Assembly (NCBI GenBank): GCA_947184155.2
Contig: CAMXCT020002713.1
Coordinates: 1 to 64,000, forward strand
DNA length: 64,000 bases
Source: Cladocopium goreaui
Lineage: Eukaryota; Sar; Dinophyceae; Suessiales; Symbiodiniaceae
Reading direction: 5' to 3'
How positions within the stretch are numbered: the first letter of the stretch is position 1; every line of letters starts with the position of its first letter. The notes beneath the pieces are model-generated. The model saw nothing but the letters and a program-made list of their open reading frames with translations. It did no database searches and was not told the origin of the DNA. A program made the position numbers and the translations under genes. Shown piece by piece: positions 7,411-57,978 of the stretch.

Positions 7411-7413
7411 TCA
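7411..7413 (-). other. Gag-Pol UGA, element B
   Basis: Gag ends ...ECPH-UGA, and the same frame continues CUU UGC UUG AAA into the MTase-RT open frame. The stop is the only barrier between the two. Proposed readthrough site, by analogy with C, D, E, F and G. Confidence 0.65.
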
Positions 7414-8607
7414 GTGGGGGCATTCATTGCCCGGATGCAGCTTATGGCATGCCTTCTTCCAACACATGTGATAACTAACCATGCAGCGTTTGCCCGGCTT
7501 TACTTTTGCAGTGCAACGTCCAATCTGCCATCGTTTGCAAAGTTGCTTGCCATCAACGAAGATTTCACAATCATCCGGCACTGCAATGCCAGGGGCTGTC
7601 TTGCCTTTGCCTTTGCCTTTTGAAGACTTCCCTTTGCCTTCTGCATTGTATGAGCCTTTCCCTTTCCCAGTTGCAGAGAAGGAGTGCGTGTGCTCCGACT
7701 TGGACATTCCATGACTCTGCAACGGTATCAAGTGCTGAAGGACTTCGGGATGATCAGCAAATTTTGTAAAGGCAACGTCAAATGGTTTATCTGCTCCAGC
7801 CTTTGGATGCAACTTGCCTCGCGTCTCATTGGAGACCTTCACCCAAAGCGCCTTGTCGGCGTTGATTGCCTGTTCAACGCTGATGTGCCTATAATTGGCA
7901 ATGGGCGCCTCATTCATTTTTTCAAAAAGTTTCTGTGTCCATAGGTCCAAAACTGAAAAGGTTCCAATACCAGCCAAGTCATATGCTAGTGATCTCCGCA
8001 GGAAGGCTTGTCTCAACTTGTGCTCACCTGTCACATTCACATCATCAAGCCGTTATTTCTTACTGAGTCGCAGGCCACCAGCGTTGTCCAAAGCCAATGA
8101 TGTGTCAACCTTTGAGTGCAAAGCCTCGTCATGACGTGATGAGCACCTGTTCAATTCAACGTATGTCACAACATTGTCCTCCAACTGCTGGCAAACACGG
8201 TCAATCAAGGAATGCGAGGGTTCACTTTGAGGAGTGAAGCTCAAACCTACAAGCCGTTCTTTCTGTTGTCTGATGCGGTCCATCTTTTCAGCCAAAGGAA
8301 GTATTCTGGCCTCACTGGACTCAACCCTGTCTGCACGTGACTTCAAATCTTCCAATGACAAAGCATGAGCTTCAAAGAAAAGCCTACGAAATCTGGTTGC
8401 GGCAGCAGCATTTGGAACGGCACCCAAGGCTGTTCCCAAGAAGTTAGTCAATGCAGTGTCATCAGTTTGACCAGGTTGAAACGTGCAGCAGTATGCATAA
8501 GTAGCATAATTGTTTATGCCTTTCTCTGCCAGTGCCTCGATGTCATCCTGCTCGATTCCAAGTTCAGCTGCCCTGTTCTGAAACGCGATTCTTGAGTCAA
8601 TAGCCAT
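7411..8607 (-). pseudogene. Element B gag, split by one in-frame UAA
   Basis: The start AUG at 8607 opens 184 codons (MAIDSRIAF...). A UAA at 8053-8055 interrupts, and the same frame then continues 214 codons to the UGA at 7411. Element C has the homologous protein uninterrupted (aligned region ...RRSLAYDL versus ...RRALAMDL), so the UAA replaced a sense codon. The C-terminal part is rich in Gly-Lys-Gly repeats, then Cys/His residues (CKRWQIGRC, HMCWKKACHKLHPGNECPH), a nucleic-acid-binding finger. Upstream, TTTTTCTTTATGCGTCGTTCAG precedes the start and looks like a splice acceptor. Role: nucleocapsid-like RNA binding, inferred from position and finger. Confidence 0.7.
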
Positions 8608-9191
8608 TAGTTGCTGAACGACGCATAAAGAAAAATCAAGTTGAAACTATTGCGAGATTAATTTCAATATGTAAGTCAAGAAGTTACAATTGCTGTCCAA
8701 CAGTTTCTGTGAACATAGCAACGCTTTAATGCAAAACTTATTTGTCTGTGAACCTGCGCAAACGTGATGTGTTCTGTTTGGAGCACGTTGGTGCTGAGCC
8801 AATGCAATGCCCCACATGAAAGAAGTCTGAGTTGAGATGTCAGGCAATGATACCTCTGCCGCATGATGACATGCTAGGCATTGGGCAGTCATGCGAACCT
8901 AATCTCATGACTCCCATGTGACGCATGCAAAGTGTGCCCATGATGGCTCCAAAAGAAATCACAAAAATTTCAAGCACATGGGTTCCAGTGACAAAAGTTT
9001 TGTGCGATCAGCCATTAAACACAACTGTGAAATTGCCGCTCACTTGCTCACTTTTATACCTCCAATCGGACGTGGTACAGATAAGCCAACTTCGCGGAGA
9101 GTAAGGCTCAAGAAACTGCAGCCCCATGTACTTTGTCGGGGTATTCGAAAGCGAGCCAGTGGTTTCTGTAACTCACACTCCAGCATGGCCA
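8608..9191. other. Element B spacer between YR and gag
   Basis: About 580 bp with no credible gene. It ends in the T-rich/AG tract just before gag. No minisatellite is present, unlike the same position in F, G and J. Confidence 0.6.
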
Positions 9192-11255
9192 TCATGACTG
9201 ATTATCTGAAGCCTTGTAAGCATGAGAACAGTTGGCACAGATCACTGCTTCCGTTGCATTGAGGTCATCCATGGTTGCATTCCTGAACGAAGTCGTGGGA
9301 TGCCTTCCACACCAAAACTTTCCGTCTTCGCAAACCAGCATATGGATTACCCTTGAATTGCTGTTGATAAGGCACAAACTCAGCTCCACTTCGTCAGTCT
9401 CCAGTCGTTGGTACGCTGGTCTCTGCGCCACAACGTTGTGCCCACCCTCTGAGGAAGCCACCGATGAAGCATCAGACGTAGAGCTCGAATCGCTGGAGCT
9501 CTCATCACCATTGCTTTCCAACATTGTCGCATATGCCAGCTGAAACAAGCGACTGACTCGAGTTGCATCAGGGTCAAAAGTGCCATCTCTGATCTTGGTG
9601 AACATGTCATGCAACTTTTTACAAAGGCTGATCTGGTTGTCCCTCGAGTAGATCATGGCCGAACGATACTGTGCACTTACATGGTGTCCCAAAGCCAGTT
9701 GTTCGTCTGCTGAAAACAATGTGCTCTTGGCTGCCCAGCTGAGAATTGTGGCCTTGAGGCCGTGAACTGTAAGCAGCCTAGCCCGCGTAGAACCTGTAAG
9801 AGGCTCCAAAAGTTCTCTCAACCAACCTGTAGCTTCAGCAGTCGACATCCTAGAATCAACCCAGCAATGAGCACTTTCTGACCATGAGTTCAAGAAATTG
9901 CTCCAGCCACTTGCATCGCATCGCTGTCGTGCATCCATCCAGCTTTGTCCCCAGTTGCCTTCATCAGTCACTTTTCCCAGGGCAGTGAAAGGCAGTAATT
10001 CCATCTGCTGTTCTTTGCCTCGAGACGATTTATGTTTCGATGTCAGGGCCTCCAGGAGGACTATGCTGCCAGCAGTCGACAAGTCCAGTGACACCACAAA
10101 CATTGAATCATGCCATCGTGCTGCAGCAGTAAAACTGAAAAGTAAGTGCCCAGCGATTACCCTTCGATGAAGCTCTGCGTCATTCAAACAAATGTCTTCC
10201 AAGGCTGAAACTTCGGCAACAGTCAAAACTTCGGCAGGTCTCCTCACTCTCTTAGTCATGTATGTGGCATGAGCAGCTCCGACAACTCGAGCACTCAGCA
10301 TGTCTGACAAACGCACCTGTGTGAAGCCCAGCAAAGCGTCAGAAAACCTCATAGCCTCCAGGAATTGAGAGGGTGTTGTTGGACCTGCTTGAGACTGCCG
10401 CAAATGACAAACGTATTGATACAGCATCTTCTCTTCTTGGCAAAATGGTGATCCAAGGCCCTGCGTTTGCAGCCAACCAGAAAATCTCCAAAGTGCGTTG
10501 CATCTCTTAAGAATGGTTCCAGTTGCTTTTGGTGCAAAAACATCCATGAAAATCTGTGACAACTCATCATCAGGACATAATGTACCAGCAAAACTGCGCA
10601 GTGATTGCCCAAGCCTTGTGCTATCTAGGTTCAACAAAACCATAGTCTTAAACCTTGACAAAGCCAGGTGGCGGTAATCGTCCTGCGAAGAGACAAGTCT
10701 TGAAGCCCTGATGCGTTGCACTGTCAACTCAGTCTGCCGTATAGGTTTTGGCATGGCACTATCTTCCGACAACGATGCAATGTGGTCTGAGAGTCCAACC
10801 AACGGCATCTTGTTCTGTCGCTGCAAGCGTTCCCAAAAAGGTTTCTGTTTTGAAAATAAGGTCGACAAAGGTCCCGTCTGCCATGGTTGCTTGACATCTG
10901 CAATAAGCCTATGGATCTGAGTCGAAGCCATTTCATCTGCAGTGCGTTTCACAGCAATGCCAACTGAGGTCGAGACAGGAGGCTTTTCTGCCGCCATCTT
11001 TGGTTTGGGTTGCATGAGAAGTTGTCCAGTTCTAACAGGTTCTACTGGCTGATCATCCATAGCTGTTGCAATGTCATCAAAATCATCGTCATGAGGCAAA
11101 CTAAATATATCACTTGCAGCTGACTGTTCGACATGTTCCCAGTCCACACCAGGATCTGAAAAAGAAGGATCAACATCGTTTGAGTCTGTGTTGGTGACGT
11201 TTGCAGATTCAAAGGGTTGCCAACGTCCTCTAAAACCTCTGTGTTCAACAACCAT
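9192..11255 (-). CDS. Element B tyrosine recombinase
   Basis: 687 codons, intact. The N-terminal 200 residues are acidic and low complexity. A SAM-like core-binding region (PKATGTILKRCNALWRFSGWL) precedes the catalytic part. Catalytic positions: Arg in AAARWHDSM, HxxK in VHGLKATILSW, GHH in LALGHHVSAQY, and the nucleophile in MIYSRDN. A Ser/Glu/Asp-rich linker (ESNGDESSSDSSSTSDAS) leads to a C-terminal module with CEDGKFWC and CANC pairs. It is the first major gene of the element. Expected to resolve cDNA circles and integrate them without target duplication. HxxK instead of HxxR is unusual. TTTTCAG lies about 20 bp upstream of the start. Confidence 0.85.
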   Translation of the reverse strand: MVVEHRGFRGRWQPFESANVTNTDSNDVDPSFSDPGVDWEHVEQSAASDIFSLPHDDDFDDIATAMDDQPVEPVRTGQLLMQPKPKMAAEKPPVSTSVGIAVKRTADEMASTQIHRLIADVKQPWQTGPLSTLFSKQKPFWERLQRQNKMPLVGLSDHIASLSEDSAMPKPIRQTELTVQRIRASRLVSSQDDYRHLALSRFKTMVLLNLDSTRLGQSLRSFAGTLCPDDELSQIFMDVFAPKATGTILKRCNALWRFSGWLQTQGLGSPFCQEEKMLYQYVCHLRQSQAGPTTPSQFLEAMRFSDALLGFTQVRLSDMLSARVVGAAHATYMTKRVRRPAEVLTVAEVSALEDICLNDAELHRRVIAGHLLFSFTAAARWHDSMFVVSLDLSTAGSIVLLEALTSKHKSSRGKEQQMELLPFTALGKVTDEGNWGQSWMDARQRCDASGWSNFLNSWSESAHCWVDSRMSTAEATGWLRELLEPLTGSTRARLLTVHGLKATILSWAAKSTLFSADEQLALGHHVSAQYRSAMIYSRDNQISLCKKLHDMFTKIRDGTFDPDATRVSRLFQLAYATMLESNGDESSSDSSSTSDASSVASSEGGHNVVAQRPAYQRLETDEVELSLCLINSNSRVIHMLVCEDGKFWCGRHPTTSFRNATMDDLNATEAVICANCSHAYKASDNQS

Positions 11256-11264
11256 TACTTAATC

Positions 11265-11537
11265 CTAACTGTGCTGAAAACAACGGTGGGCAGTGTGGTC
11301 ACCTTCCAGCTCACACCACTTGTGGCAACCCGCACTTCCACAGCCGTTCCAGCAAGGGTTTGGCGTTTGACTTTCACCACGATGCAAGCCAACCTCTGTG
11401 TCCTGAGATCCCTGCGCTGTGCTGTTGGGCGATAGGACCAAGGGCACTTCAAGGCGTTTGGCAAGTTCTCTGAAAATCAACAGGAGCAATGAAATGATGC
11501 TGTAGTTAGACAGTTCCGAAATCTGCTTTGCATCCAT
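11265..11537 (-). CDS. Small Cys/His-rich ORF at the 5' end of element B
   Basis: 90 codons between repeat A1 and the YR gene, in the same frame as YR but separated by UAG and UAA. The C-terminal third reads CWNGCGSAGCHKWCELEG followed by DHTAHRC, spaced like a zinc-binding module. I do not recognise a named family. It may be a separate small protein, or an upstream exon if the TTTTCAG/CACAG region before YR is a splice acceptor. Elements C and D have no counterpart that I can see. Confidence 0.4.
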   Translation of the reverse strand: MDAKQISELSNYSIISLLLLIFRELAKRLEVPLVLSPNSTAQGSQDTEVGLHRGESQTPNPCWNGCGSAGCHKWCELEGDHTAHRCFQHS

Positions 11538-11550
11538 TAGCCCCCGTACG

Positions 11551-11839
11551 CCGAAAAGAAATGGTTGGTTGAAGAAAGGTTTTTTAAACCCTTCCCTACC
11601 TCACCCTTGATATGAAAAATGCCACACGAATAAAAATTCAGATGTGAAACCAAGGGAGAAAGATGTTTAAGGTTTGGTTTGTTTGTTTGAAGTTGAGGGA
11701 AATCTTCAGAAAACAAATCAAACATCAGAGACCCCAAACATAACAGATAACGTTTTGACCTGAGTTGCAAAAATTGTGTTGATGCATTTTTGCAATGTTC
11801 TTTTAAAGATTGCGCTCTCACTTCGTGACAGCACTCATC
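11551..11839 (-). repeat. Element B terminal repeat A1
   Basis: Outer 5' repeat of B. Its outer end GATGAGTGCTGTCACGAAG (minus strand) meets the interrupted A pol frame at the Trp-Ile codons. Confidence 0.9.
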
Positions 11840-12642
11840 CACCTGTCACTGGGGTGCCGCGACACAAACTGCTCCACATCAAACAAACTTGGGAGCTCAA
11901 TCTTCTCCCGGATGCGAGATAGCTGATTGGCGCAACTGATGCTGCTGTCACCCACTAACCTTGGCTCCGAGCCAGCTTTCTTGACTAAGCCCAACTTGCC
12001 GGCCGCACAATTGGCCCCAAAGAGGCGCCGGGCCTCCTCCACACCGCCAGGAATCCAGTCAGCAAACCCGGCTTCCACATCTGCTTGCACTAGTCGCATT
12101 ACGCAGTCTGGATCTTCCAACGCTGAGCCCCAGGGCTCATCTAAGATCTCCAGTTCCACGCCTTCAGGGCGCACAGGTTTGTCTACTGCACGCCACACCC
12201 CTGAAGGTAAAACATCTTCCAAAATGCCTGTGGGCACGCCCTCACGTAAAATGCCAGGCAATTTCACATCGATGTCGTCGCAGAACAGCAAAAGCGCACG
12301 CCACAGGTCCAAAGTTAGTGGCTGACCCGGCGGCACCTCTACCTTGCAAGGGAATTCGAAGCCTTTGCTCATCAGAAAGTCCGCTAAGCGTTGCCCCACA
12401 CACTGAACTTCATCTTCATACAGCAAAGGCTCCCGGCTAGCCTGCGCTACATGGGAGCGCAGGCGTGGTAGTAGCTGCCACTCACACACCAACTCCAAAA
12501 ATTGGCTCCGCAGTTCCGCAAGCAAATCTCCACCCTTGGGAAGATACCAGTCAGCAGTTGAATCTATACCACCACCATCTTTCAGCCGCAACAATCCGCA
12601 AGCATCCAGGCTATGTGGCAAACCGCTTGGTACTTGGACCAT
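11839..12642 (-). CDS. Element A pol, 5' part: RT N-terminal region
   Basis: Open from the UGA at 12691 through the first AUG (12642) to the B insertion. It carries the family's leader KDGGGIDSTADWYLPKGGD and the pre-palm region with CAAGKLGLVKKAGSEPRLVGD, then SRIREKIELPSL. This whole block recurs in F, G and J. It stops artificially 8 codons into B's repeat (11818). Joined across B it runs in frame into the RT palm at 3384. No methyltransferase domain is present. Confidence 0.8.
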
Positions 12643-12671
12643 TTGCGCCGGCGCATCCTGCTCAGAAGAAT

Positions 12672-13622
12672 TTACTGGCGAGATAGATAGTCACTCAAAT
12701 TTGCCGCCCCGCGGCTTGGTCTTTGGAATCTTCCGATGATCTGCGCTTGCTTCTTGCAAATTTCAGCATGGTGATCTGTGGCTCCGCACGCTGCACAAGC
12801 ATGCGCGAACCGGCAGTTCTTCAGCTTGCACTCACCAAGGCGCCACTTGAAACACTCTCCATTGCGTAAGCGTTTTGATGGACCTGTGGCCGGTGCTGTT
12901 GGGCGCTTCCGCGCCAATGGCTCTCTGCTGAACAACTTTTCCAACTTTGGACGAGGCATCAAGAGAGACCTGAGCATATCCCTGTCAACAGCAATTGAAT
13001 GTAAAGCATCATCAATGCTCGAACCTGCATAGCACAAGTTGAAGACTTCTCTCATTGCAGCTTGGTCTGCCTCTTCGGCTTCTTGGGCCGAGCAGAAACG
13101 CAAGTGGGGTCCTGGCACCTGAGTATAGAATTTCATGAACCTGTTGTTGTAAAGCGTCCAGCTACCTAAGTGCCCGCTCCCAACCATGGCATACGCATGC
13201 CCACGCACTGTCAGCAACTGCAAAATAGGAAAAGGCTGATTGGACAACTCACGGTCCAACTGCTCCTCCACATTCGCCCCGCATAAAACTTCTAGGGGCC
13301 CGAGAGCAGGCTTCTTATCTTTAAGCGCAGAAGCCACCTTTTCGCTCAACACCTTCTTCCATGGCAACCAATCCCAAGCCTTGTTGTCATGCTGCGTCTT
13401 CACAATGTTAAGAAAAGGCATGGAAGGAAGTGATTCCAAGTCCACCACACAACCTGTATACTTTGCCTCCAGGGCGCAACATCGAACACAACCGGCCGCA
13501 ACAGCAAACAAGAAAGAAAACAACACAAAATGCAATACAACTTTCACAAACTGGGCCCTTGCCCTGTATGCTGCAGCTGCACTTAGCATACCAAAGCTAC
13601 AAATCGCTGACAAAGCATTCAC
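12672..13622 (-). CDS. Element A gag-like protein with CCCH finger
   Basis: 316 codons as opened in repeat A1; an upstream hydrophobic stretch is translation of a T-rich tract, so the true start may lie nearer 13480. The core resembles F, G and J gag (YAMVGSGHLGSWTLYNNRFMKF; IDDALHSIAVDRDMLR). The finger CFKWRLGECKLKNCRFAH is followed by a Cys knuckle (CAACGATDHHAEIC). It ends in a different frame from pol: slippery-looking A-AAT-TTG at the end precedes the UGA-CUA of the pol frame. Either a small indel or a frameshift separates it from pol. Role: RNA binding/packaging (inference). Confidence 0.65.
   Translation of the reverse strand: MNALSAICSFGMLSAAAAYRARAQFVKVVLHFVLFSFLFAVAAGCVRCCALEAKYTGCVVDLESLPSMPFLNIVKTQHDNKAWDWLPWKKVLSEKVASALKDKKPALGPLEVLCGANVEEQLDRELSNQPFPILQLLTVRGHAYAMVGSGHLGSWTLYNNRFMKFYTQVPGPHLRFCSAQEAEEADQAAMREVFNLCYAGSSIDDALHSIAVDRDMLRSLLMPRPKLEKLFSREPLARKRPTAPATGPSKRLRNGECFKWRLGECKLKNCRFAHACAACGATDHHAEICKKQAQIIGRFQRPSRGAANLSDYLSRQ
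12691..12693 (-). other. UGA-CUA at the head of element A pol
   Basis: In the pol frame the sequence GAG UGA CUA UCU sits 49 bases upstream of the pol AUG. UGA-CUA is also the junction in F and G. In A the gag frame arrives out of phase. Confidence 0.5.
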
Positions 13623-13692
13623 AAAGCCAAGGCACCTTTAACCTTCCACAGCAAGGGATTGACCTTCCCAATCCTACGGTTGGGGGGTTACC
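13541..13692 (-). repeat. Element A terminal repeat A1
   Basis: Outer 5' repeat, copy of 1514-1676. The gag reading frame opens inside it. Just inside the element it is followed on the minus strand by a T-rich tract ending near TGTTTGCTG. Confidence 0.85.
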
Positions 13693-14425
13693 GGTGCTCG
13701 ACCATTGCAACACTAAGGGGATCTTTTTGCAGGGTTCGTCTCTTCTTCAAATAAGCTTCACGGGCACACCCTTCTACCCTCTTGCTTACAAGGACTGTGT
13801 CACCACCAGCAACCCCAAGGACATGGAGAGAAAACCTGATTGCAACTAAATAGGACCGCAAAAATGTTGGCGCAGAGGTGTCAGCGTGTTCACACATAAA
13901 ATTGTAAACCGTAGCCTCATTCAAAGGAAAAGCAGGAATGCCCTTTTTGTCACTCCACATGACATACCGCAGAACTGGACTGGCACGTGCATGAAGTGTG
14001 CCCGTGGCTTTACCTGCAAAAATGTGCTTCAGACCATCACCCAAAGCCTGTCCCATCGGTGACAAGCGGTCCCATTGTCTGCCAATTTCAAATGAGTTCA
14101 AATACATCATGATGATTCCAGCCCACTTCCGAATTGCTGCAACTCGCTGTGAATTCAGCATGGCCTCCCAAGAATGTCCTGTCACAGTTCGCTTTGCCCT
14201 GAAAATCCTTAGAGCCTCAGGTTTGTCAGAGGTGTCTTCTTCACCTTCATGCTCGGGGGAGACCACTGCAATCACGCCACAAGGTCTTGGAACCAAAGGT
14301 ATACTGCTGCCAGGAATTGAAATTGGAGGGCGCACAACATAAATTGGATTGAAAATTGACCCCCACACCGCACGTCTCGAAAAAGCCAAATGTGACTCAA
14401 AAGCATCCATATCATTACAGCTCAT
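13693..14425 (-). pseudogene. Gene I: truncated YR-element recombinase (N-terminal part)
   Basis: Starts MSCNDMDAFESHLAF and holds the N-terminal and core-binding regions (FAGKATGTLHARASPVLRYV; KKRRTLQKDPLSVAMVEH) that match element B recombinase closely in layout. It stops where element A begins, before any catalytic residue. The missing catalytic part does not resume on the far side of A, which is microsatellite. A further YR retroelement must once have been here. A T-rich tract (GATTTTTCGCAGC...) lies upstream of the start. Confidence 0.65.
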
Positions 14426-14782
14426 CCCCACTTTCAAACCACAGTAAATAGGCAATTGCTGCGAAAAATCCAACAATGAATGACAACATGCCACAACAGC
14501 ACAAAGTTGGAATGAAAATAAATGACACATGTACTGATGAAGTTGGAAATGCAGCGTGGCCCTTCTGGATAGCTGATGCAGTGCGAAAGGTCGCAGGCAT
14601 GAGCGAGAAGACACAAAAACGTTTGGCCAAATGCCAGCGAGATCACTTGAGGGGAAACTTGAGCCACAATGGTTTCCTTTTTTTTTGGTTGAGGTGGCAC
14701 ATGCCACACCTGCGAGTTGATAAGGTAACAAGGCTGAAGCCTAGTGAAACTTTTGTCCAAGGCCTGGCAACCACTCAATGTT
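14426..14782. other. Spacer between gene H and gene I
   Basis: About 350 bp without a convincing gene; the open frames here are Cys/Phe/Leu-rich readings of T-rich DNA. It may hold the 5' leader of the element that gene I came from. Confidence 0.5.
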
Positions 14783-17061: not shown

Positions 17062-18447
17062 TCAAGAAAAGCCACACCAAGGCTCCTCCAACAACTCTCG
17101 AACATTCAGTCGAACGCGTCGACCCGGATCAAAGCCTTCTAGGCAATTCCGGCTGAGGTTGTCGGCCCATTGATTTCGAACACCAGCCACATGCTGGGGG
17201 TCTAAACAAATGCCTAATCTGCAGCAATCAAAGCCCACGGCCTCCAAAACATAACACAACGGCACTTGCATAGACAATTTCTTCCGCAAGCTGGCGGCAG
17301 TGCCCATGTTGTCGCAAAGCTGGTGGAAACGCAGCGTCACACCAGGTGGTGGAACCTGACCTGCTGTCCGTCCAACAAGCAAACATAGCTGCGCAACGCC
17401 TTCAAAGGAAGCAATATCCTGCTGCAAAGTCTCTTTCGCACACAACCAGGAAGGCAAAGACGTCGAGTCCAGCATCTCACTAAACCAAAACACCTTCGAC
17501 TGTTGCAGCGCATCTTCGGAGACAGCCCACCAACCTCCTACACCTGCACGCTGTCCTGTTGCAAATGCGTCAGCTGCACTCCGCACACGCCCGGGCTCCA
17601 AAACGCGCAAAGGAATGCGAACTTGGTTTTCCACTGCCCTCAAGAAAAGCTGGGCAGCCCATGCTGCGGCTCGGTTACATTGAATAGTGGGGCTTGAATA
17701 GTTGTAAAAAACACAGCTGATCATTCCCTGACGAATACGGGGAGTTCGCAACGGCTCACTGTCAAGTGAATCAACTGGGCAGTTCCAAACAGAATGAAGT
17801 TTCCAACCATGCAGAATATCGCAATCCATCAAATCTCGAGAAACAACAAGTTTGTTCGTAAGGGCCCCAAGAAGAGCACCAAACTGCCCACTAGACACAG
17901 AGCGAAATACGCATGCAGGTTTCAACAATAAATGATATATACTCTGCAGCCATGGTTTCAACCAGTAGGCCCCACCACAGAACCACACCAACATGCCTAT
18001 GCAGCGCTCCACAGTCTTGCGGGGTACCTTGCGACCGGGTGTTGTCAGTTCCGTGAGCAATCCTAACAAGGTTTGTCGCTTGTTGTCTGGTAGTTCCGCA
18101 AAGCCACGATCCCAATGAAAAGACCAACCAATCCACGACTGTAGACCTCCCATACGCACCTTCTCCCACGACAGCGGAACTCCTAGAGCAGCGAGAAACA
18201 AGAGCAGAGTTGCTGACAAGATTGGGCAGACTCTATGTGGGAAAAGGGCCAAACCGTCATCGACGTAGATGAATAGACCATGTTGGACCCAAAGAAAGCG
18301 ATGACAATGACGGACCAAGAATGCACCCACTCTTGAAAACCAATAGGCCGCCCAACGACATCCAAAATAGCAAGACCTGTAGACGAACCAACGACCTTGG
18401 ACAACGAAGCAGGAAAGGCCCTGTTCAGCAGGAGACACATTGACCAA
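17062..18447 (-). CDS. Element G pol, 3' part: RT palm and RNase H
   Basis: 461 codons. Begins in RT motif A context (HKLVNVSPAEQGL), with YRSCYFGCRWAAYWFSR, the catalytic FIYVDDGLALF, and WIGWSFHWD. RNase H: AADAFATGQRAGVGGWW, QLCDNMGTAA and HVAGVRNQWADNLSR. The frame is intact to the stop at 17062, which directly precedes repeat B1. It is separated from the 5' part by a frameshift near 18450 (two bases short of the family sequence between RG and HK). Probable role: element reverse transcription. Confidence 0.85.
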   Translation of the reverse strand: MVNVSPAEQGLSCFVVQGRWFVYRSCYFGCRWAAYWFSRVGAFLVRHCHRFLWVQHGLFIYVDDGLALFPHRVCPILSATLLLFLAALGVPLSWEKVRMGGLQSWIGWSFHWDRGFAELPDNKRQTLLGLLTELTTPGRKVPRKTVERCIGMLVWFCGGAYWLKPWLQSIYHLLLKPACVFRSVSSGQFGALLGALTNKLVVSRDLMDCDILHGWKLHSVWNCPVDSLDSEPLRTPRIRQGMISCVFYNYSSPTIQCNRAAAWAAQLFLRAVENQVRIPLRVLEPGRVRSAADAFATGQRAGVGGWWAVSEDALQQSKVFWFSEMLDSTSLPSWLCAKETLQQDIASFEGVAQLCLLVGRTAGQVPPPGVTLRFHQLCDNMGTAASLRKKLSMQVPLCYVLEAVGFDCCRLGICLDPQHVAGVRNQWADNLSRNCLEGFDPGRRVRLNVRELLEEPWCGFS

Positions 18448-18448
18448 T

Positions 18449-19336
18449 TTATGTGCCCCTCACATCAAAACTCAAAGCCCCCCATTGTACATCGGGACCA
18501 GATAATGACATGAAGCGCTGGACGCTCTCAAAGGTTGGTAGGCGCACCTTCTCCTCAATGACACAATGATGGTTTGCTCCCGAAATCGTCCCATCCCCGA
18601 TGAGACGTGGTTTCTTTCCAGGCGGCTGTGCTATTCCTAACTTGCCCGCGGCAACCAGATCACCCCACCGCTGTCGCGCTTCCGCCTCCCCTCCAATCAG
18701 TTCATAGGCATGACCTGCTGCCACATCCTTCAGCATTAGCTCCAGAGTAAGGTCTTCACGGTCTAAACCACTGCGCCAAGGCTGTAAATGAATTGACAGG
18801 TCATCTAAACCAAGGTTAGGGGCAGGCTCAGACGGCTCCCAAATACCTGAAAATGGAATTGGAGAGACTATACCTGTGGGTACACCGCGCTCCAAAAGTG
18901 GGGGAAGCAAGGCATCCTTGTCATCGCAACAAGCAGCTAATGCAGACCACGCCTCAAGCAAAAAGGGTTGATAAGGAGACACCTTTGTTGAACAATCAAA
19001 CCCCTTGTTCCGCAAAAAGGATACTAGATCGCGCTGAGCTTGATGTATTTCCTCAGGAGAAAACAAGCAATTTGCATTTGGGTGCTGCGAATGGGCTTGA
19101 AGCCGCTCGACAACCCCCCAGGAAACAACTAAAGATTGAAAATGTCTCCGAAGCTCACGCAGCACATCAGAATCAGCACGTGGAATTAACCAATCTGCAG
19201 AAGAAGCGCATCCTCCCCCGTCAGCGATGGGAAAAGGCGCGGCCATTGATACCGGCGCGGCGCGGGGCGAAGGGGCTACCGCCTCATGGGGCGTCAACGC
19301 AGGCAACTCGCAAGAATCATTGCTCGCATCCACCAC
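18449..19336 (-). CDS. Element G pol, 5' part: RT N-terminal region
   Basis: The frame is open from the UGA at 19364 without interruption. It holds the DGG leader (ADGGGCASSADWLIPRADSD), AAGKLGIAQPPGKKPRLIGD and the start of motif A (GALSFDVRGT), where a frameshift brings the stop at 18449. The first listed start is a GUG 9 codons after the UGA, so translation as a Gag-Pol fusion is more plausible than a separate start. Confidence 0.8.
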   Translation of the reverse strand: MVDASNDSCELPALTPHEAVAPSPRAAPVSMAAPFPIADGGGCASSADWLIPRADSDVLRELRRHFQSLVVSWGVVERLQAHSQHPNANCLFSPEEIHQAQRDLVSFLRNKGFDCSTKVSPYQPFLLEAWSALAACCDDKDALLPPLLERGVPTGIVSPIPFSGIWEPSEPAPNLGLDDLSIHLQPWRSGLDREDLTLELMLKDVAAGHAYELIGGEAEARQRWGDLVAAGKLGIAQPPGKKPRLIGDGTISGANHHCVIEEKVRLPTFESVQRFMSLSGPDVQWGALSFDVRGT

Positions 19337-30353: not shown

Positions 30354-30385
<32 letters not shown>

Positions 30386-46349: not shown

Positions 46350-46352
46350 TCA
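46350..46352 (-). other. Gag-Pol UGA, element C
   Basis: ...EHEGQ-UGA-AAA-CAG in one frame, pol open immediately after. The next base is A, a weaker readthrough context than the C seen in the others. Confidence 0.6.
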
Positions 46353-47570: not shown

Positions 47571-48092
47571 TCTGACACACGCGATCTAAGAAAGGCAGTA
47601 AAAGAAAGTTGTTGGATTCATCAGCACCAAAATTCACATTATTGAAGTTGAACATGCAGCGAGAAAAATTAAGACAGTGAAAGCATCTCAAAAATCATGT
47701 CGTGCAAAATGAATGACATCGTGTTGTGATAATGCTGAGGCTTGACACATATGTGCGCATTCGCACTTCGAGCTGTGGCCATAACTCTGCAATGAGATAC
47801 AAACATGTGTTCTCACATGACTCCAAAAAATGAGTCCATCTCACCGTGCATTCACGGCACATCTGACATCATGTCGGTTGAGCATTCTCAAGAAACATCT
47901 GATCACTCACAAATTCAACTGTCATTTCAGTGTTCTTTCTGAGAGCTGCCACGCACATTTTCCAAGCCACAGCTGAGATACAAACCAGTTCCTGCTGTTA
48001 CGCAGGGTCCCTATGTCTGTCGACAGGGTGCACAAATGAAAGGAATGAAACAACATGCATGAAATCAAAGGTCAGAAAATGCAAATGAAATT
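47571..48092. other. Element C spacer between YR and gag
   Basis: About 520 bp with no gene or tandem repeat that I can see; ends in the acceptor-like tract before gag. Confidence 0.5.
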
Positions 48093-50360
48093 TCACTTCT
48101 GAGCACGTCGCTTGGCATGAACAGCTTCCAATGCATCGGCAAGGTCCTGAACCTTGGTGATGACCTCGCCCTTGAAACAGATTGCACACCGTGCCCATTT
48201 GAAAGATGCCCCATTTTCCAAGTAGTTGTAGCTACTGCCAACCTTCCTGCCACACGCCATCAAGCCAGACACTTCGTTGGGCCTGTGTAAGACCCGGCTC
48301 TTTTTGTGCTGGTACACCGGCTCCTCACAGTCCTTGGTCTCACCAGCAGCACCGTATTTCTGTTGCAACGGTTCTTCACACGCAGAGGAGCTTGATGAAG
48401 TCGAGCTCGATTCATCTGATGACTCTTGAGCTTGCGCAGCCCGATCATCCTCTGCCTCACTGCCAGGTGCACCAAAAAGGTCCCAATCGGGCTCTGTAAG
48501 ATCCACAACACCGCAAACATTGTCAATACAATGTTGGTCCTCAGATCCAAAAGCACTGGGGGGGGCCTCTACCTTCACGCGGGTCCTTGGAGGAGCATCT
48601 GAAGCAGAAGCTGCATCATCTGGCTTGCGCCTCACAAACCGGCCAGACCTTGTCTCATCTGGAAGAAAATGACCAGTTCTGATGTTCATCAGCATAGCCT
48701 CATACAACGCCAGGGGCCTACTGAGCATGTCACGGGAGTAGCAGGCCAAGCTTTGAGACTGCAACTCATGATGACCCAGCAACGTCCTTGCAGATTCATC
48801 CAAACCATACTTTGCGCTCCAAGTGAGCGTTGTGGCCTTCATGCAGTGGCTTGTAACCACATTCTCACCATGCAGCCCCAACATATGGTTGAGGAAATCG
48901 CCAATCTCTTCAGACGACAAATGTCGAGTGCCCAATGTGCCATTCATGGGAGGTCTGCACATAGCTCCCACTGGTTCTGCCGCTAGGTCAAACTGAACCT
49001 GATCCAAAATGTGAAACCACTCAACTGCCCAGAGTTTGTCTGTCACCCCACAAATAGGTGCCACCAGCGGCATCTGCATCGCCCGCTTCAAGGCCGTGGA
49101 GCCAGTCTTCTGAAATCTTGTTGAGCCTTCCACAAAACAAATTCGGCCCAGCTCTGTTTCTGTCGTATCCAAAGCCAGGTCACTTAGGAATGCCAAATCC
49201 GACCATCTTGACCGGCTGTAAATTGCAAAAAGGACACAACCAGCAATGTACCTGTCGAAAACGTTCATGTCAGACATCATGAACTCCTCTATGAATTTAA
49301 CCTCAGCAAGAGTCAGCGGTCGGCTCTGCTTGATTGTGTCCCTTGCGGCATCCATGCGCCTCACTCTACCTGACAGCACAGGATCATCAATGATCTCATC
49401 CAGATCTGGCAGCCTCATGACATGCTTGCAAAAACGGAAGGCTTCCATCAGTGTTTTGCCCTTGTTGCTGCCAGCGCCACCCACGTTTGATTCATTCAAG
49501 TAAGCTGCAACATAATCAGATCTGACTGGCCACACACTGAGATTCTTCTTGTCCAACCATGCAAAGAGTGCTAACATGGTTGATGCCCGTTTGTTTGCAG
49601 TGCGCGGCGATTTGTTGCCAAACACATCCCTGAGGATACTTCCATAGTCCTTTCCATCGCTCACTGCATCCCTGACTGCCGCACCAACTAAACCTGTATA
49701 GCAAGCACACGCCAAAACAGTGTGCCATTTTTTCAGTGCTTTCGCCCATGACTCATCTATGGCTGTGAGATGATCCACATCACGTTTCAACTTGACAACC
49801 TGTGAAAAAATGCAGTCAGTGCGGTCACGCTTCAGAATCTTACTTGAGACACCTGTCAAAGCATCAACACTTGACTCAGTTGGTTGTGCATCCTCGAGGT
49901 CAGGAGGCAAAGGACATGAAGCCAAATTGGATGCCAGAAAATCTTCATTGCTTCCAAAAATTGTTGCAAAAACACCGGATTCCCACGGCAGTGACTGAGT
50001 GAGGTTCCGACTGTTGACAAAATGCGCCTCCTGCAAAGCCCGATCAACCTGTTGGCCAATCCATGCCGCACCTTCGTCCACAGGTCCATGCAATGCAGTG
50101 TCAACCTGAACATCATGCGACAAATCATCAACATCAGGAATATCAAATCTGTCAGTAGGGTGTTGAACATCTGTATGCGTACGGCTCCAAACTGTCAAAG
50201 AATCAACCAGACTGTCATTGTTTGCATTTGCAGTTGCAACACGTCTGTTTGCATTCACCGCTGAAACAGGTTCAGATGTATCTGCTCCAGCTCCATACAG
50301 TTCAACGTCCTTGATCACCACGTCGAAAAAATCGGCCATACGCAAACCCCTACTCAGCAA
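48093..50360 (-). CDS. Element C tyrosine recombinase
   Basis: 755 codons as opened; AUG at 50339 (MADFFDVVIKDVELYG) is a good start. Core-binding NKSPRTANKRASTMLALFAWL. Catalytic: Arg in IYSRSRWSDLAFL, HxxK in SHCMKATTLTWSA, LGHHELQSQ, and CYSRDMLSRPL. Acidic/Ser linker (QESSDESSSTSSSSSACEE), a C-terminal stretch HKKSRVLHRPNEVSG and a CAIC pair. Intact, close in plan to B recombinase. Confidence 0.85.
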   Translation of the reverse strand: MLSRGLRMADFFDVVIKDVELYGAGADTSEPVSAVNANRRVATANANNDSLVDSLTVWSRTHTDVQHPTDRFDIPDVDDLSHDVQVDTALHGPVDEGAAWIGQQVDRALQEAHFVNSRNLTQSLPWESGVFATIFGSNEDFLASNLASCPLPPDLEDAQPTESSVDALTGVSSKILKRDRTDCIFSQVVKLKRDVDHLTAIDESWAKALKKWHTVLACACYTGLVGAAVRDAVSDGKDYGSILRDVFGNKSPRTANKRASTMLALFAWLDKKNLSVWPVRSDYVAAYLNESNVGGAGSNKGKTLMEAFRFCKHVMRLPDLDEIIDDPVLSGRVRRMDAARDTIKQSRPLTLAEVKFIEEFMMSDMNVFDRYIAGCVLFAIYSRSRWSDLAFLSDLALDTTETELGRICFVEGSTRFQKTGSTALKRAMQMPLVAPICGVTDKLWAVEWFHILDQVQFDLAAEPVGAMCRPPMNGTLGTRHLSSEEIGDFLNHMLGLHGENVVTSHCMKATTLTWSAKYGLDESARTLLGHHELQSQSLACYSRDMLSRPLALYEAMLMNIRTGHFLPDETRSGRFVRRKPDDAASASDAPPRTRVKVEAPPSAFGSEDQHCIDNVCGVVDLTEPDWDLFGAPGSEAEDDRAAQAQESSDESSSTSSSSSACEEPLQQKYGAAGETKDCEEPVYQHKKSRVLHRPNEVSGLMACGRKVGSSYNYLENGASFKWARCAICFKGEVITKVQDLADALEAVHAKRRAQK

Positions 50361-50668
50361 ATTTCAAACATGGCGTCCTAAAAAACGCGAAACCCACCCA
50401 CCCACCTCTTGAACATAAACTGTGGGAAAACATAAAAGTCATTGACATGTACCCAAGATAAGTGTTGACAAGAAAGCACAGCAGTCTGAGGAAAAACACA
50501 TCAAAGAAAAACGTTGCAAGACAAATGTTAACTGTTTGAAATTACAGTGTTGACATTTGAGACCCATACTTCAAGTGACCCCCAGAACCGCATAGCCTGC
50601 ATTCAGGCAGACGGTTTTTTAGATTTAGGAAATAAAGAGTTATCACCACGTTGGGCGAAAAACCTCTT
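50357..50668 (-). repeat. Element C terminal repeat A1
   Basis: Outer 5' repeat. The YR AUG (50339, MADFFDVV) lies just inside it, with no separate leader ORF. Confidence 0.9.
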
Positions 50669-52142
50669 CAGGAATACGAGATTGAGGGTTGACCCCACAT
50701 ATAGTGGAGTCTAGAACTAATCTAGGAGGGCGGCTGTCGCTCAGAGCTAATCCAAGTTTCCCGACTGCAAGGCCATGCTCGAAGAATGCCTGAGCCTCTT
50801 CCATTGTGCCATGGAATTGCGACACCCAGCCTGCCTCTATCTCCTTATCGATGAGTTCCTGGACTGTTTCTGGATCATCCTCTGCAGATTGCCAATTTGT
50901 ATGATGAATGGAAAGTAAAGGGGGGTCGTATGGAGTATCCGGTGGATTACTGGGGAAACAGTGGGATGATTGAATTTCTTCGTCAATCCCTAACGGAACC
51001 CCGGCAATGAGGTAGGGAAATAGGGAAACATCGGGGTCATGCATGACCAAGCATAATTGCTGCAATATATGAAGGCATAATTGTTGATCTGGTGGGATCG
51101 ACCAATCTGGTTGAATCCCTTGTGCCAACAAAAATTCATCAAGAAATGCACGGAATGGTTGAAGTTGTTCTGCAGAAAATGGAGGCTCAGCCTGCCGATT
51201 ATTGAATGCACGGAGGATCACCTGATCCAATCGTTGGGACATAATGGTTCGAAAGAAATTCTTACGAAGAGTTTGGAAACAATCTGCAAAATTATGTTGT
51301 CCACTCCAATCTGCTTTAGAGGGGAAACCGGCCCCGTCTTGGCGTGCAAATGGGGGTGCTGAAATGGATTTTATCGGAAGGTAAGACTCAAAGGTTGACA
51401 ACTGGAGTTCACGACCCTGGTCTGACAGCAAAGGCAAAATAATCTGAGCACATTGATTCGCCAACTCTGGGGGATACTCTGCCGTATCACGGCTCAAATA
51501 ATGACCTGCTGAAGTTCTAACGCCGGCTATTTGCTGATGGCTCCCCCATGGGTGATTACATGAGCAGGCCATACGCACCAATGCCGCAAATGTGCTAGCA
51601 AACAACCAAAATTTATGCCAATTGCGACCAAACCCGCAGGCTGACATGGAGATACACGAGCATGCATGTTGTGAAATGAACTGTTGGACAATGGGCTCGC
51701 TCCAACTCATGGCTGATTTCGGTTGCTCGAGATGGCCGTGACCCCCTGACGCAACTGTGACCTGTAAACAGTCGATGCACCTGTGCAGCATTGTAGAGCT
51801 CTCCTGGACACGCAATAATTCAGGACCTGATAGGCCTGGGATGCCATCTAAATGTTGTGGGGTACGCAATGCAGGGGGCCCATTGGGGAGCAATTTTAAC
51901 CGGCTATATTCACAACATGATGGTGAAGCAGCAGTATAGGCTACAATGCCTGATGCACACAGTCGTAACAATTGTTCGAATTTATTAGAGTCCAAGAGAT
52001 CATCCGAAGTATGTACCAGGATGTCAAATTTCATTACATCCCCCTTTAATTTTATGACGGCACTGGAAAGGGGAGGAATTAACTCCACAGCAAATATCAA
52101 GAAAGATCCTAATCCCGGGGGAACGTGGAAATTGAATGACAT
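50669..52142 (-). CDS. Element E pol: eroded methyltransferase-like domain and RT N-terminus
   Basis: Frame from 52142 down to the C insertion. The methyltransferase-like part is related to D: AASPSCCEYSRLKLLPNG in the motif IV place, and GHGHLEQPKSAMSW where the others have IENP. RT leader: RQDGAGFPSKADWSG, then VGKLGLALSDSRPPRLVLD and SRIPEE at the break. Motif I (IFLDICCGVNSS) lies upstream in another frame (see 52080-52503). Asn-to-Gln in the ENP box and the missing Pro-Cys argue against methyl transfer by this copy. Confidence 0.7.
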
Positions 52143-52503: not shown

Positions 52504-52506
52504 TCA
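52504..52506 (-). other. Gag-Pol UGA, element E
   Basis: ...DKTPH-UGA-CAU-AUU, the same frame staying open for about 140 codons. Confidence 0.65.
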
Positions 52507-53733
52507 GTGTGGAGTCTTGTCATGCATCAAGGCTCCATGGCTCTTATTACATGCTTCACCTGATGGCATGGGATAGGCACATCCATGATGAAACCTGCAA
52601 GCACTGCCCATATCGCATTTTCCAGTCTGAAGTCTCATGCACAATTGTTTCTTGGTGCCACCAGCTGATACCTCTGTAATCAAATTGACCTTGCCGCCAG
52701 TTTTGCCGGCAGATTTGCCTGACGATTTGCCTGCTTTACCCTTTCCATATGGAGATGGACGGTTGGTTTTACCACCACCCTTCTGTGATCCAGCTTCGAT
52801 ACGCTGAAATGTCTGACGTGGAAGTCGAGGTCGAGCCTGAAGCAATGTATTGATCTCCGCCCGGATGAAGGTCACCTCATGGATGGCGTCGTCAAAAGAC
52901 CACTGTTTCTCCATCACTAAATCACAAGCAATTGTCATCAATGTCTTGTCGGCGCTCTGAGCCTCCAATATCGTCGGGTTTCGGAGACCCGTCTCAGAGT
53001 CCAACTTGGTGGTCATCAAATTGATGAATCGAAGATAATAATTCTTCATGGTAGCCAAGTGTGCAAGATCCACCATTGCCATAGCATAGCTGAATGTCTC
53101 AAACGTCTGACGTAAAGCATGCATACCCATGGAACCATTCTCGATTGTCAATTCCGGTGGAGTATCAACCAGCAAGGCATGAAGCTGAATGCCTTCGGAT
53201 TTCGCAAGTCTCGATGGCTTAGAGGAGCTTAGCTCGTCTGCTTTGGCCTGACTCAAACGATATTTCCACGGAACCCAGCGAAATTCCAGTTTGGTTTTTT
53301 GATGGTGCACTAGACTTAGCAGTCTCAGGCTCGGAGTGGTCTCCGGCAATAAGATCTCCGCCGGGTAATTCTTCTTAAATCGCTGCTTCATCTCCGAAAC
53401 CACTTGGGCTGTTAACTTCGGAGGGAACGTCTCTGACCAGCTGGCATGTGCTGGACCTGCTTCATTCGGGCTCGGATTGGATGGCAGTGACGGTTGAGGA
53501 GCACCTGATTGGGATGACTGACAACGCGTCCAAGCTAATCGAATTGCCGATCGCTGGACGGCTGTGGTGATATCAAACAAATCACCCAGCATCGACTTCA
53601 ACTCTTCGTCAAAACGGTCTAGGTTGGGAGCAGCCATCGCAAACAGTTCGATGGTCCAACCATCTTCAGCTAACTTGTCAATGAAGGTGTCCTGAACGCC
53701 TGCATTTTGTAACAATTCTTGCAGTGAAGCCAT
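52504..53733 (-). CDS. Element E gag-like protein with CCCH finger
   Basis: AUG of MASLQELLQNAGVQD (about 53733) preferred to the opening at 53781. KNYPAEILLPETTPSLRLLS and FRWVPWKYRLSQAKADE match D, and more loosely F and G. Basic KGKAGKSSGKSAGKTGGK, then CMRLQTGKCDMGSACRFHH and CAYPMPSGEACNKSH. A TTTTTTTCTTTGGTCATTCAAG tract lies upstream. About 410 residues, intact although YR and pol of E are damaged. Confidence 0.75.
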   Translation of the reverse strand: MASLQELLQNAGVQDTFIDKLAEDGWTIELFAMAAPNLDRFDEELKSMLGDLFDITTAVQRSAIRLAWTRCQSSQSGAPQPSLPSNPSPNEAGPAHASWSETFPPKLTAQVVSEMKQRFKKNYPAEILLPETTPSLRLLSLVHHQKTKLEFRWVPWKYRLSQAKADELSSSKPSRLAKSEGIQLHALLVDTPPELTIENGSMGMHALRQTFETFSYAMAMVDLAHLATMKNYYLRFINLMTTKLDSETGLRNPTILEAQSADKTLMTIACDLVMEKQWSFDDAIHEVTFIRAEINTLLQARPRLPRQTFQRIEAGSQKGGGKTNRPSPYGKGKAGKSSGKSAGKTGGKVNLITEVSAGGTKKQLCMRLQTGKCDMGSACRFHHGCAYPMPSGEACNKSHGALMHDKTPH

Positions 53734-53781
53734 GTGAGGTCCCACCGCAGAATGGACGCAACGCAGTGCTTGAATGACCAA

Positions 53782-54256
53782 AGAAAAAAATATGGATCTA
53801 CTGAAAATTTACATGGGTCTGCATCCAAATGCTAATGCATACGTTGGGAGCCCCATTTTTTTTTTGAAATTGTTTTTTTGAACTGGAGCCATCGGATACA
53901 ATCATGAATCCTTGTTCCAACGCACCGAAAATGCAAAAGATATCTGTGAGCATGTTTGCACCGTGATTTGCCATGCCTATCAAATGACGGCCACGCACAC
54001 CCCCTCAAGGTGAAAATAAGGACATCCATCCGTGCACATGCAGCAATTCACGATTGCCGTTGATGCAACGCGACCAAACAAAATTTTGAGTGAAGTACGC
54101 CAGCCATAACCACCCCCAAGTTGGCATGTATAAATCTGGTCAGGCATTAGAATTCTATATATAAAACGTTATAGACATATATCAACCCGATCCCCCAGTC
54201 ATATTGGTGGTTTCCACAAGTACTGCAATTCTTTTGCTGCACCACTGAACGCAAAT
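53782..54256. other. Element E spacer between YR and gag
   Basis: About 475 bp, no gene or tandem array seen. Confidence 0.5.
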
Positions 54257-55649: not shown

Positions 55650-57026
55650 TCACAACTTCCCACACGCAGTGCGCCCGGCGCCATTCCAAGGCTTTTCAAG
55701 AATGGAACACACATCAAACTCCATTCTATTAGCTGCGTTGAAATTTTCATAGCAGCCACGACTCAGGGCATCAGCCCACTCATTGCGAACACCCGCACAA
55801 TGCTGCGATGACAAAGATACACCATGCTGACAGCAATAAAACCCAATCGCTTGCAGCACATAGCACATGGGTGCCTTCATGGTCAACTGTTTGCGAGTCA
55901 ATGCCACCACGCCATTATTGTCACACAGTTGTTACAAAACCACTGTCGCATTTCCTGGATGTGTGAAATGCCGAAGTCGCCCCAGCAAAAGCAGCAGCTG
56001 TGCCAAAGCTTCAAAAGATGTAATGAATGACTGCAAATTTTCGGACTGTAACCATGCTGGAAGATCTTTGGCGCGAAACTGAATACTAAACCACAAAACA
56101 GTTTGTGGGGATGGAGCCACGTGAGAGGGGCACCACCATCCTCCTACACCGCAAGATGAAGAATCAGCAAATGCATCAGCAGCGCCGAAGCCATGTTCCA
56201 CCTGAGTGCAACGCAGGGGAAGCGGTTTTTGCACGGAAACAGCATTGAAAAACAAAGTGGCCGCATCAATCGAGATCTTGTTGGTTCGCACCTTGGCACT
56301 GCTATAGTCATAGAAAACGCAATCAATTGCACCACGTTTCAAACGCGGAGTCTGAAGCGGGACATCGCTCAGCGCACGCACAGCACAGTTACTTACTGAA
56401 TGTAACTTCCAACCCTGCTGTAAGTCCCACTGCGAAAAGCTATGCTTCAAACGTAGATTGGGGTCCAGTGAGCCACGCATGCATTCAAATTGCGCGGGCA
56501 ACAAGGCACGAAATACACACAAGGGTTTGAACAATAAGTTATATAAGCATTGCAGCCACGGCTTCAGCCACGAAGCACCCCCGCAATACCAGAGCAAAAG
56601 GCCGATAGCTTGCTCCACCAGCTTACGTTCAACCCGCCGGTTCTCTACCATGAGACAAAAAAGCAACTGCTGCAACTTCTGCTTCTTCGCGTTAGGCAAA
56701 CAAACTGTAGCATTGGAAAAATGGAAATCCCACCCAATCCAGGAAATAGCAGTGCCCAGTTGCAATTTTTCCCAACTGATCGGCATACCGATCGACAGCA
56801 AGAACATCAATGAAGTAGTTGCAACCAGCGGCGCCACATCAGCGGGAAGCAAAAGGAGGCCATGCGTGTGGTATCCAAACCCAGCGATGCAAGAGTCGCA
56901 CAAGAAATGAAGAAGCACGCGAGAACCAGTAAGCCGCCCAGCGACAGCCAAAAAAACAGGTTCGGTAGGTATACCATTCTCCATCCAAAACAAAAGTGCT
57001 ATACCCTTGTTCTGCAGGTCGTACAC
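55650..57026 (-). pseudogene. Element F pol, 3' part: dead RT and RNase H
   Basis: RT-connection and RNase H: WIGWDFHFSN, AADAFADSSSCGVGGWW, then an in-frame UAA at 55932-55934, then CDNNGVVAL-type sequence and HCAGVRNEWADALSRG to the stop at 55650. The expected YVDD is replaced: the aligned sequence reads LLLLPADVAPLV. A frameshift near 56868 joins it to the 5' part. The polymerase cannot be active. Confidence 0.8.
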
Positions 57027-57957
57027 GAATTAGCTTGTGGGCTCCACGAATATCAAAGGAAAAGGCAGAAAAAAGTTTGTCAAGCGGCGTTGCGCTAGCA
57101 ACTCTTTGCACGCAGCTCAAAGTGGGCAAGCGAATCTTTTCCAGAATCACGCAGCGCGAATTTGCACCAGAAACCGTGGCATCGCCAATCAACCGTGGTT
57201 TCTTGCCCGGGATTTTCACCAAGCCCAATTTACCTGCAGCAATCTTGTCCCCCCAGCGTTCCTTCGCTTCCGCTTCACCTCCACGTAAATGCATGAGACA
57301 ACCAGCGTCAATATCCTTTTGAAGCAACTGTTTTGCCAGGGGTAAATCTTCAGCTGCCGAGCGCCAAGGCTCAAGGTGAACCAAAAGATCACAAGGAACC
57401 AGCTCAGGCTCAGGTGCCATTCCATCAAAATCTACTGCATCCCAGACACCAGAAGGTGAAATCGGGGATTCGATGCCTGTAGGAACCCCTTCTGAAAGAA
57501 TGTTGGGAAGATGTGGATCAACATCAACAGTCATCTTGGCCAAAGCTTGCCAAACGGAAAGCAGAAAAGGCTGATTGGGTTCGACATCACCGTTGCAAGA
57601 AAAACCATGGTTACGCAAAAAACCAACAATCTCTTCACGCAAGTGTAACACTTCTTCAGCAGAAAGCAGCTCAGCATCCGTGGGGTTAGAGACGTGCGCC
57701 ATCAGGCGGGGAACTAGACGCCATTCCATAGCCAAAGATTCAAACCTGCGGCGAAGATCACGAAATAAATCGTCCTTGACCCGCGGCTGGAACCAATCAG
57801 CCGTAGAGCAGATTCCCCCTCCGTCTGGGACGGGCACCCCACAGTAATCTAACTCCGACCTTGTCATCACCTCTGCTTCTGCAGGCGGCTGCCGATGACA
57901 CACAGATGGATTGTCACCTGACGACCAAATGGCTGCGGAAGCATCAAACTCTGCCAC
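56839..57957 (-). CDS. Element F pol, 5' part: RT N-terminal region
   Basis: In frame with gag through UGA 57976-57978. Leader PVPDGGGICSTADWFQPR, AAGKLGLVKIPGKKPRLIGD, RCVILEKIRLPTLSCVQ, motif A (SAFSFDIRGAHKLIRV), and YRTCFFGCRWAAYWFSR. It leaves frame at HRWVWIPHAW. Close to G over its whole length. Confidence 0.8.
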   Translation of the reverse strand: MAEFDASAAIWSSGDNPSVCHRQPPAEAEVMTRSELDYCGVPVPDGGGICSTADWFQPRVKDDLFRDLRRRFESLAMEWRLVPRLMAHVSNPTDAELLSAEEVLHLREEIVGFLRNHGFSCNGDVEPNQPFLLSVWQALAKMTVDVDPHLPNILSEGVPTGIESPISPSGVWDAVDFDGMAPEPELVPCDLLVHLEPWRSAAEDLPLAKQLLQKDIDAGCLMHLRGGEAEAKERWGDKIAAGKLGLVKIPGKKPRLIGDATVSGANSRCVILEKIRLPTLSCVQRVASATPLDKLFSAFSFDIRGAHKLIRVRPAEQGYSTFVLDGEWYTYRTCFFGCRWAAYWFSRASSFLVRLLHRWVWIPHAWPPFASR

Positions 57958-57975
57958 TTGGGGCTCCTTTGATAG

Positions 57976-57978
57976 TCA
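57976..57978 (-). other. Gag-Pol UGA, element F
   Basis: ...FEHAE-UGA-CUA-UCA, open pol frame follows at once; same UGA-CUA as G and A. Confidence 0.7.

Follow-up and report, generated by a model that had tools for sequence, protein, structure and literature searches.

How is the polymerase of a retroelement made when gag and pol lie in one frame with a stop codon between them? The question is raised by a 64,000-nucleotide stretch of the genome of the dinoflagellate Cladocopium goreaui, positions 1-64000 of contig CAMXCT020002713.1 (C2713) within a 1.17 Gb assembly, which we call the window. It holds eight gag-bearing retroelements (A, B, C, D, E, F, G and J), all on the minus strand, for which the original prediction proposed a conserved UGA at the gag-pol junction that is read through to give Gag-Pol. 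A survey of relatives across the genome supports that proposal: all 67 clusters of junctions have UGA as their stop, in 57 of them the base directly after it (+4) is C, and at 74 of the 80 loci sampled gag and pol share a frame. Programmed UGA readthrough to Gag-Pol, probably set by a short local context, is our preferred reading, at a probability of about 0.86.

What do the junctions of the window look like? At six of them the gag frame is open up to a single UGA and the same frame is open behind it, as had been predicted: B (UGA-CUU, 7411-7413), C (UGA-AAA, 46350-46352), D (UGA-CCA, 38723-38725), E (UGA-CAU, 52504-52506), F (UGA-CUA, 57976-57978) and G (UGA-CUA, 19364-19366). The corresponding gags lie at 7414-8052 (B, the C-terminal open part), 46353-47585 (C), 38726-40099 (D), 52507-53808 (E), 57979-59889 (F, a frame counted from stop to stop) and 19367-20641 (G), and in all six a CCCH finger closes the gag frame. 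The gag frame of A (12675-13637) and the gag of J (25511-26737) carry the finger as well. Its CX8CX5CX3H ligand columns make up four of the six invariant columns in an alignment of the eight window gags, and the G gag matches Pfam zf-CCCH above its cut-off.

The two remaining copies, A and J, are frameshifted. In A the UGA-CUA (12691-12693) stands at the head of pol, with the gag of this copy in another frame; at five places that hold siblings of A (L030/L033, L032, L034, L035 and L055) the 25 codons ahead of the UGA are free of stops and share the frame of pol. In J the UGA-CAA (25508-25510) ends gag and pol changes frame after 58 codons, close to the 60 or so first estimated. Further damage lies past the junction, where the E frame breaks about 160 codons on, inside a presumed methyltransferase-like domain, and the D frame after about 355 codons; the attribution of stop losses inside genes to decay fits what is seen. 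The codon before the UGA is Glu in F, G, A and J, and Pro-His precedes it in B, D and E; the two local likenesses pointed out earlier, UGA-CUA in F, G and A and Pro-His in B, D and E, are real. The assertion that every tyrosine recombinase (YR) retroelement of the window has such a junction holds for the gag-bearing elements and does not extend to two pol pieces (1939-3390 and 31441-32961) that have no gag match upstream. Nor do six UGAs by themselves make chance improbable, as had been argued, because UGA is the favoured ordinary stop here; what makes chance untenable is the sample from across the genome and, most of all, the +4 C.

Relatives were sought with the pol sequences of G, A, C, D and B as queries, giving at least 130, 138, 116, 114 and 150 matches, respectively, which overlap; first-look candidates numbered 3761 for C pol (best 116 scored) and 3464 for B pol (best 150 scored). 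Eighty loci (L061-L080, L101-L140 and L181-L200) were hand-picked, not drawn at random, across levels of identity and for the longest open frames, and the last stop in the pol frame ahead of pol was defined as the junction. At 74 loci a single UGA divides a gag and a pol of the same frame (63 UGA-C, 8 UGA-A, 3 UGA-G). Five others (L073, L075, L110, L140 and L190) have pol in another frame and a gag still ending in UGA-C, and at L184 the end of gag has been lost by deletion, so that the remaining gag runs open into pol. Neither UAA nor UAG was found at the junction in any of the 80. Two scans of viral contigs found no relatives there.

The 67 clusters, formed at 85% identity over about 110 nt, were built from these loci less the five frameshifted ones and L184, together with the window elements and 54 of the loci L001-L060. 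L025, L026, L037, L039, L048 and L059 were left out of the latter for reasons that include frame decay and identity of place with J; L039 and L048 are one decayed copy, with other stops present and a sense codon where the UGA would be. Twenty further regions (L081-L100) start inside pol, miss the junction and enter no count. The 139 records comprise 105 distinct sequences, as some places were fetched twice. Over the 67 clusters the +4 base is C in 57, A in 7 and G in 3, and the +5 base U in 36, A in 15, C in 13 and G in 3. Among related copies, then, we saw neither random stop identity (UGA in 67/67 clusters) nor a random frame relation, since the six loci of the 80 that are out of frame are visibly damaged. 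The UGA is kept despite the low similarity of the window gags, which share 17 to 27% identity with the G gag except for that of F (55%).

Two other routes to Gag-Pol were tried and rejected. Frameshifting fails as a general route because 74/80 loci keep one frame and the offset varies among the shifted copies. A stopless gag-pol fusion was sought at nine places where the pol frame exceeds 1200 aa: six of them (L121, L133, L135, L181, L182 and L183) have the UGA, L075 is frameshifted, L184 is the deletion, and L026 was set aside. We also note a subfamily (L192, L193, L195 and L196) in which UCC precedes the UGA, as at the antizyme frameshift site, yet pol is in frame 0. Another observation concerns B-like relatives (e.g., on contigs C2945, C36, C158 and C443), more than 20 of which match at an identical score (192 bits, 45% identity to B); in many of them the pol frame runs to 1026 aa, and they suggest a recent burst of near-identical copies.

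Is the UGA set in a particular context? The codon after it begins with C in the same 57 clusters, with Leu, Pro, His or Gln as the encoded residue; none of the 67 clusters has CUG, UUR or CGN at this place. CUA made up 14 of the 27 CUN codons in the first 52 clusters examined, against a background of 0.13 (P 1e-6) and 38 of 271 downstream (P 1.7e-5). On the other side of the stop, the middle base of the preceding codon is A in 49/52 and 57/67 clusters. Where that codon is His, it was CAC in 25 and CAU in 2 of the 52 clusters, against 100 CAC and 178 CAU in the gag background (P 6.5e-9), and it is CAC in 33 and CAU in 2 of the 67; the preference for CAC thus runs against codon bias. Recent descent is not the whole cause of this uniformity, because the neighbouring wobble base, that of the codon ahead of the His, varies (A 14, C 9, U 9, G 3). 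In human cells UGA_C terminates less well, readthrough is higher at UGA_CUA and the codon in the P site has an influence (PMC9841425).

Since UGA is favoured here, junctions must be compared with other ends of open reading frames (ORFs). The control for pol comprised 40 of 60 loci (L061-L080 and L101-L140), short frames and about nine long or odd ones having been excluded; all the frames used have at least 1016 codons, and some may end at a premature stop. The pol of these 40 elements ends in UGA in 25, UAA in 8 and UAG in 7, with +4 C in 8, and their junctions have UGA in 40 and +4 C in 34 (by Fisher's test P is 1.2e-5 for UGA, and 6.3e-9 for the +4 C; when each cluster is represented by one element, 34 in all, the values are 2.3e-5 and 2.8e-8). 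One subfamily is instructive, as its pol ends in UAA (L114), UAG (L117), UGA (L122) or UAA (L124), and the junction is UGA-CU in all four. The YR ORFs of 20 relatives end in UGA in 18 and UAA in 2, with +4 C in 3, a figure that also differs from that at the junctions (P 1.3e-8); in the window all six YR ends are UGA, followed by A or U.

Do ribosomes continue past the UGA, or do they start afresh behind it? Termination followed by re-initiation at a downstream AUG, with Pol as a separate protein, would suit the closeness of pol behind gag and the presence of an AUG in the linker of many clusters (5 to 39 codons after the UGA in the window elements except J). However, of the 27 clusters whose sequence extends to a pol motif, 9 lack any in-frame AUG ahead of that motif, and a restart requires neither a shared frame nor UGA, +4 C or CAC. 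From the UGA to the first AUG, or to the end of the piece or frame, the 67 clusters present 1875 codons with 2 stops in frame 0 (in J and L038, by the 52-cluster tally) against 34 and 104 in the other frames. This openness is partly by construction, because of the way the junction was defined, yet the last in-frame stop before pol proved to be the gag terminator in 74/80 loci. Behind the UGA, comparison between relatives gives a ratio of nonsynonymous to synonymous change (pN/pS) of 0.59 in frame 0, 0.87 in frame 1 and 1.12 in frame 2, and 33 of 40 gaps there are multiples of three. The pattern looks like that of translated sequence and argues for continuous translation past the UGA rather than restart at an AUG, and we regard re-initiation as highly improbable.

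Might the UGA be a stop in the DNA and not in the message, or a stop that this organism does not read as one? RNA editing is known in dinoflagellate organelles, and a change such as A to I would turn the UGA into a Trp codon; a short intron would serve equally. A case of editing in Amoebophrya lends such removal at the RNA level some further credit (PMC6394959). The conserved +4 C and the CAC in the P site, on the other hand, form a signature of termination context (PMC9841425), and with the finger close before the UGA and the open frame directly behind it an intron would have little room, so that removal is quite unlikely. Selenocysteine (Sec) insertion or a general reassignment of UGA, the former raised in the original prediction beside readthrough, would account for UGA being the sole stop at the junction, and Sec is known in dinoflagellates. 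Yet no Sec insertion sequence (SECIS) is among the three Rfam matches at E up to 1 in a search limited to the window, and wholesale reassignment is disfavoured because the same elements end pol (25/40) and YR (18/20) with UGA; we find these explanations scarcely credible. There is finally the possibility that the UGA has no function and reflects shared ancestry, or chance with the genome's favoured stop. The elements are indeed related, and the prevalence of UGA at other ORF ends, 18 of 20 for YR, is what chance would need. Against it, the pol stops exchange within a single subfamily whose junction stays UGA-CU, the UGA persists among the highly diverged window gags, and the His codon holds to one wobble base where the codon next to it does not. 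This last explanation has next to no probability.

How, then, might readthrough work? The stop, its frame and its context are conserved, and the stretch between the UGA and pol bears a coding signature; from these we infer the readthrough event, its rate, an inserted amino acid, and a stoichiometric purpose in the balance of Gag and Gag-Pol. In each element one frame, interrupted by a single UGA, would encode both Gag, with a CCCH zinc knuckle at its end, and Pol. Most ribosomes would stop at the UGA and release Gag, and a minority would decode it with a near-cognate tRNA and go on to make Gag-Pol, so that the polymerase would be made in small ratio and travel with Gag. The signal would span few bases around the stop: in the P site most often CAC (or CAR/GAR), then the UGA, a C, and mostly U, A or C after it. 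Downstream RNA structure was also looked for, and in local windows, whose reach does not extend to pseudoknots or long-range pairing, it does not rise above shuffled sequences (mean z +0.19 for 80 nt, n=46; +0.17 for 60 nt, n=47). A z below -2 was seen in 2 of the 47 downstream windows of 60 nt, and other windows gave mean z values of -0.40 to +0.35.

Several observations weigh against programmed readthrough. There is no local RNA structure of the kind that aids murine leukemia virus (MuLV) and the alphaviruses. Ten of the 67 clusters lack the +4 C (7 A, 3 G), and the share of CUA falls to 14 of 35 CUN codons when all 67 are counted. UGA alone hardly distinguishes the junction from the YR ends (67/67 versus 18/20, P 0.05). 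The linker before the first AUG is loosely constrained, with a dN/dS of 0.61 versus 0.09 at the end of gag, and in 7 of 40 cases the gap behind the UGA has a length not divisible by three. The P values given above treat related clusters as independent, and they overstate the surprise because the clusters share ancestry. Finally, the gag-UGA-pol junction of Tca2 gave no readthrough in yeast (PMC2194720). A bolder form of the readthrough proposal would make the nine-base context, of the CAC-UGA-CUA type, a structure-free codon of dual meaning, at which a dedicated or unusual tRNA would insert a defined amino acid at a high rate; it would be the Gag-Pol switch of a large and diverse retroelement superfamily, and host genes might use it too. 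That idea we consider rather unlikely.

What kind of elements are these? Six elements of the window (B, C, D, F, G and J) carry a putative tyrosine recombinase ORF ahead of gag, with the UGA and pol following; the ORF upstream in A is of the recombinase type, of the B and C kind, and E has an upstream fragment only. The same order recurs in relatives that have a recombinase match and a junction on one contig, e.g., C1813, C512, C305, C5879, C1502 and C1725. The putative recombinases of D (41204-43462), G (21207-23054), J (27378-29279) and F (59957-61671, in a broken frame), and those of a second type in C (48096-50363) and B (9195-11258), are named from motif reading: they have a conserved R, K, H, H/K, Y-like pattern that resembles the motifs of tyrosine recombinases. 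Searches of Pfam and of PDB with these ORFs gave no match.

The pol of B, C, D and E opens with what we presume, from motif reading, to be a methyltransferase-like domain. In B this first part (5587-7410) is followed in another frame by a reverse transcriptase (RT) part (4334-5719); C has both in one frame (43605-46349), where RT-like motifs are visible in the translation; D has a first part (37658-38722) and an RT part in another frame (35644-37833); and the main part of E pol (50646-52142) is in a frame that differs from that of gag. Matches to Pfam RVT_1 are all below the curated cut-off (D, E 1.3e-4; B, E 0.0053; C, E 0.057). The first parts of the remaining pols lie at 56842-57975 (F), 18452-19363 (G, with an RT part in another frame at 17065-18459), 11821-12690 (A) and 24544-25350 (J, in a frame that differs from gag). 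We call the elements DIRS-like because RT and recombinase rest on weak profile matches and motif reading; as far as sequence can tell, their content fits that of published dinoflagellate DIRS elements.

Some further features deserve mention. Element A looks mosaic (12675-14740), as its gag and pol resemble those of J and its upstream recombinase-type ORF (13691-14740) resembles those of B and C. Near-identical short repeats occur between elements at 3394-4361, 11268-11845 and 32973-34100 (96 to 99% in translated matches), and are possibly terminal or internal element repeats. In the A-pol search all the pol rows on C3557 (13/13) and C2713 (10/10) are on the minus strand, likewise in the G-pol search, and C6017 is mixed; some rows are pieces of one element, and the pattern is one of same-direction clustering. 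Elsewhere in the genome, peridinin-chlorophyll protein genes form long tandem arrays on C278, C360, C1913, C2358 and C4249 (150 matches scored), as befits a peridinin dinoflagellate, which the host therefore is.

How do these junctions compare with known systems? Gag-Pol made by stop readthrough is known in some retroviruses and suspected in one UGA-bearing long terminal repeat (LTR) element of yeast. Here it looks like a common rule across a large and very divergent group of tyrosine recombinase-type retroelements and, with thousands of first-look candidates in a single genome, the group is a natural set in which to learn what bases make termination less efficient in alveolates. A literature search that covered titles and abstract openings, with subscription papers outside it, turned up no account of readthrough between gag and pol in DIRS or dinoflagellate retroelements, and the term DIRS does not occur in 300,000 of the 475,107 characters of PMC5009743. 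Similar elements already described are SymbioDIRS-Dnmt3 and the other DIRS elements of Symbiodinium, whose divergent RT is poorly seen by Pfam (de Mendoza 2018, PMC5890265). They share with ours the dinoflagellate host, that elusive RT, a methyltransferase in the pol of some, a separate recombinase ORF and a variable order of recombinase and pol. In the main text of that account, however, the word gag does not appear, and no mention of a stop between gag and pol was met; the present elements are described with their gag, the UGA in frame with it and the bases around that stop.

Candida albicans Tca2 is likewise a retrotransposon with a UGA between gag and pol, but it is an LTR element, its junction alone gives no readthrough in S. 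cerevisiae, and a potential 3' pseudoknot is named for it (PMC2194720). The alphaviruses read through a UGA between nsP3 and nsP4, with the addition of a downstream stem-loop, in unrelated hosts and genes (PMC8310308). Mammalian UGA-CUA genes such as OPRL1 have the same UGA-CUA and show effects of the P-site codon, again in unrelated hosts and genes (PMC9841425). A further parallel is offered by MuLV, in which gag and pol occupy one frame, one stop divides them and a minority of ribosomes read through (PMC8310308). MuLV uses UAG and a downstream pseudoknot, in contrast to the UGA-C found here with no local structure; even so, our best reading, by analogy, is that the candidate gag-pol switch of these dinoflagellate elements would work in the manner of gammaretroviral gag-pol expression.

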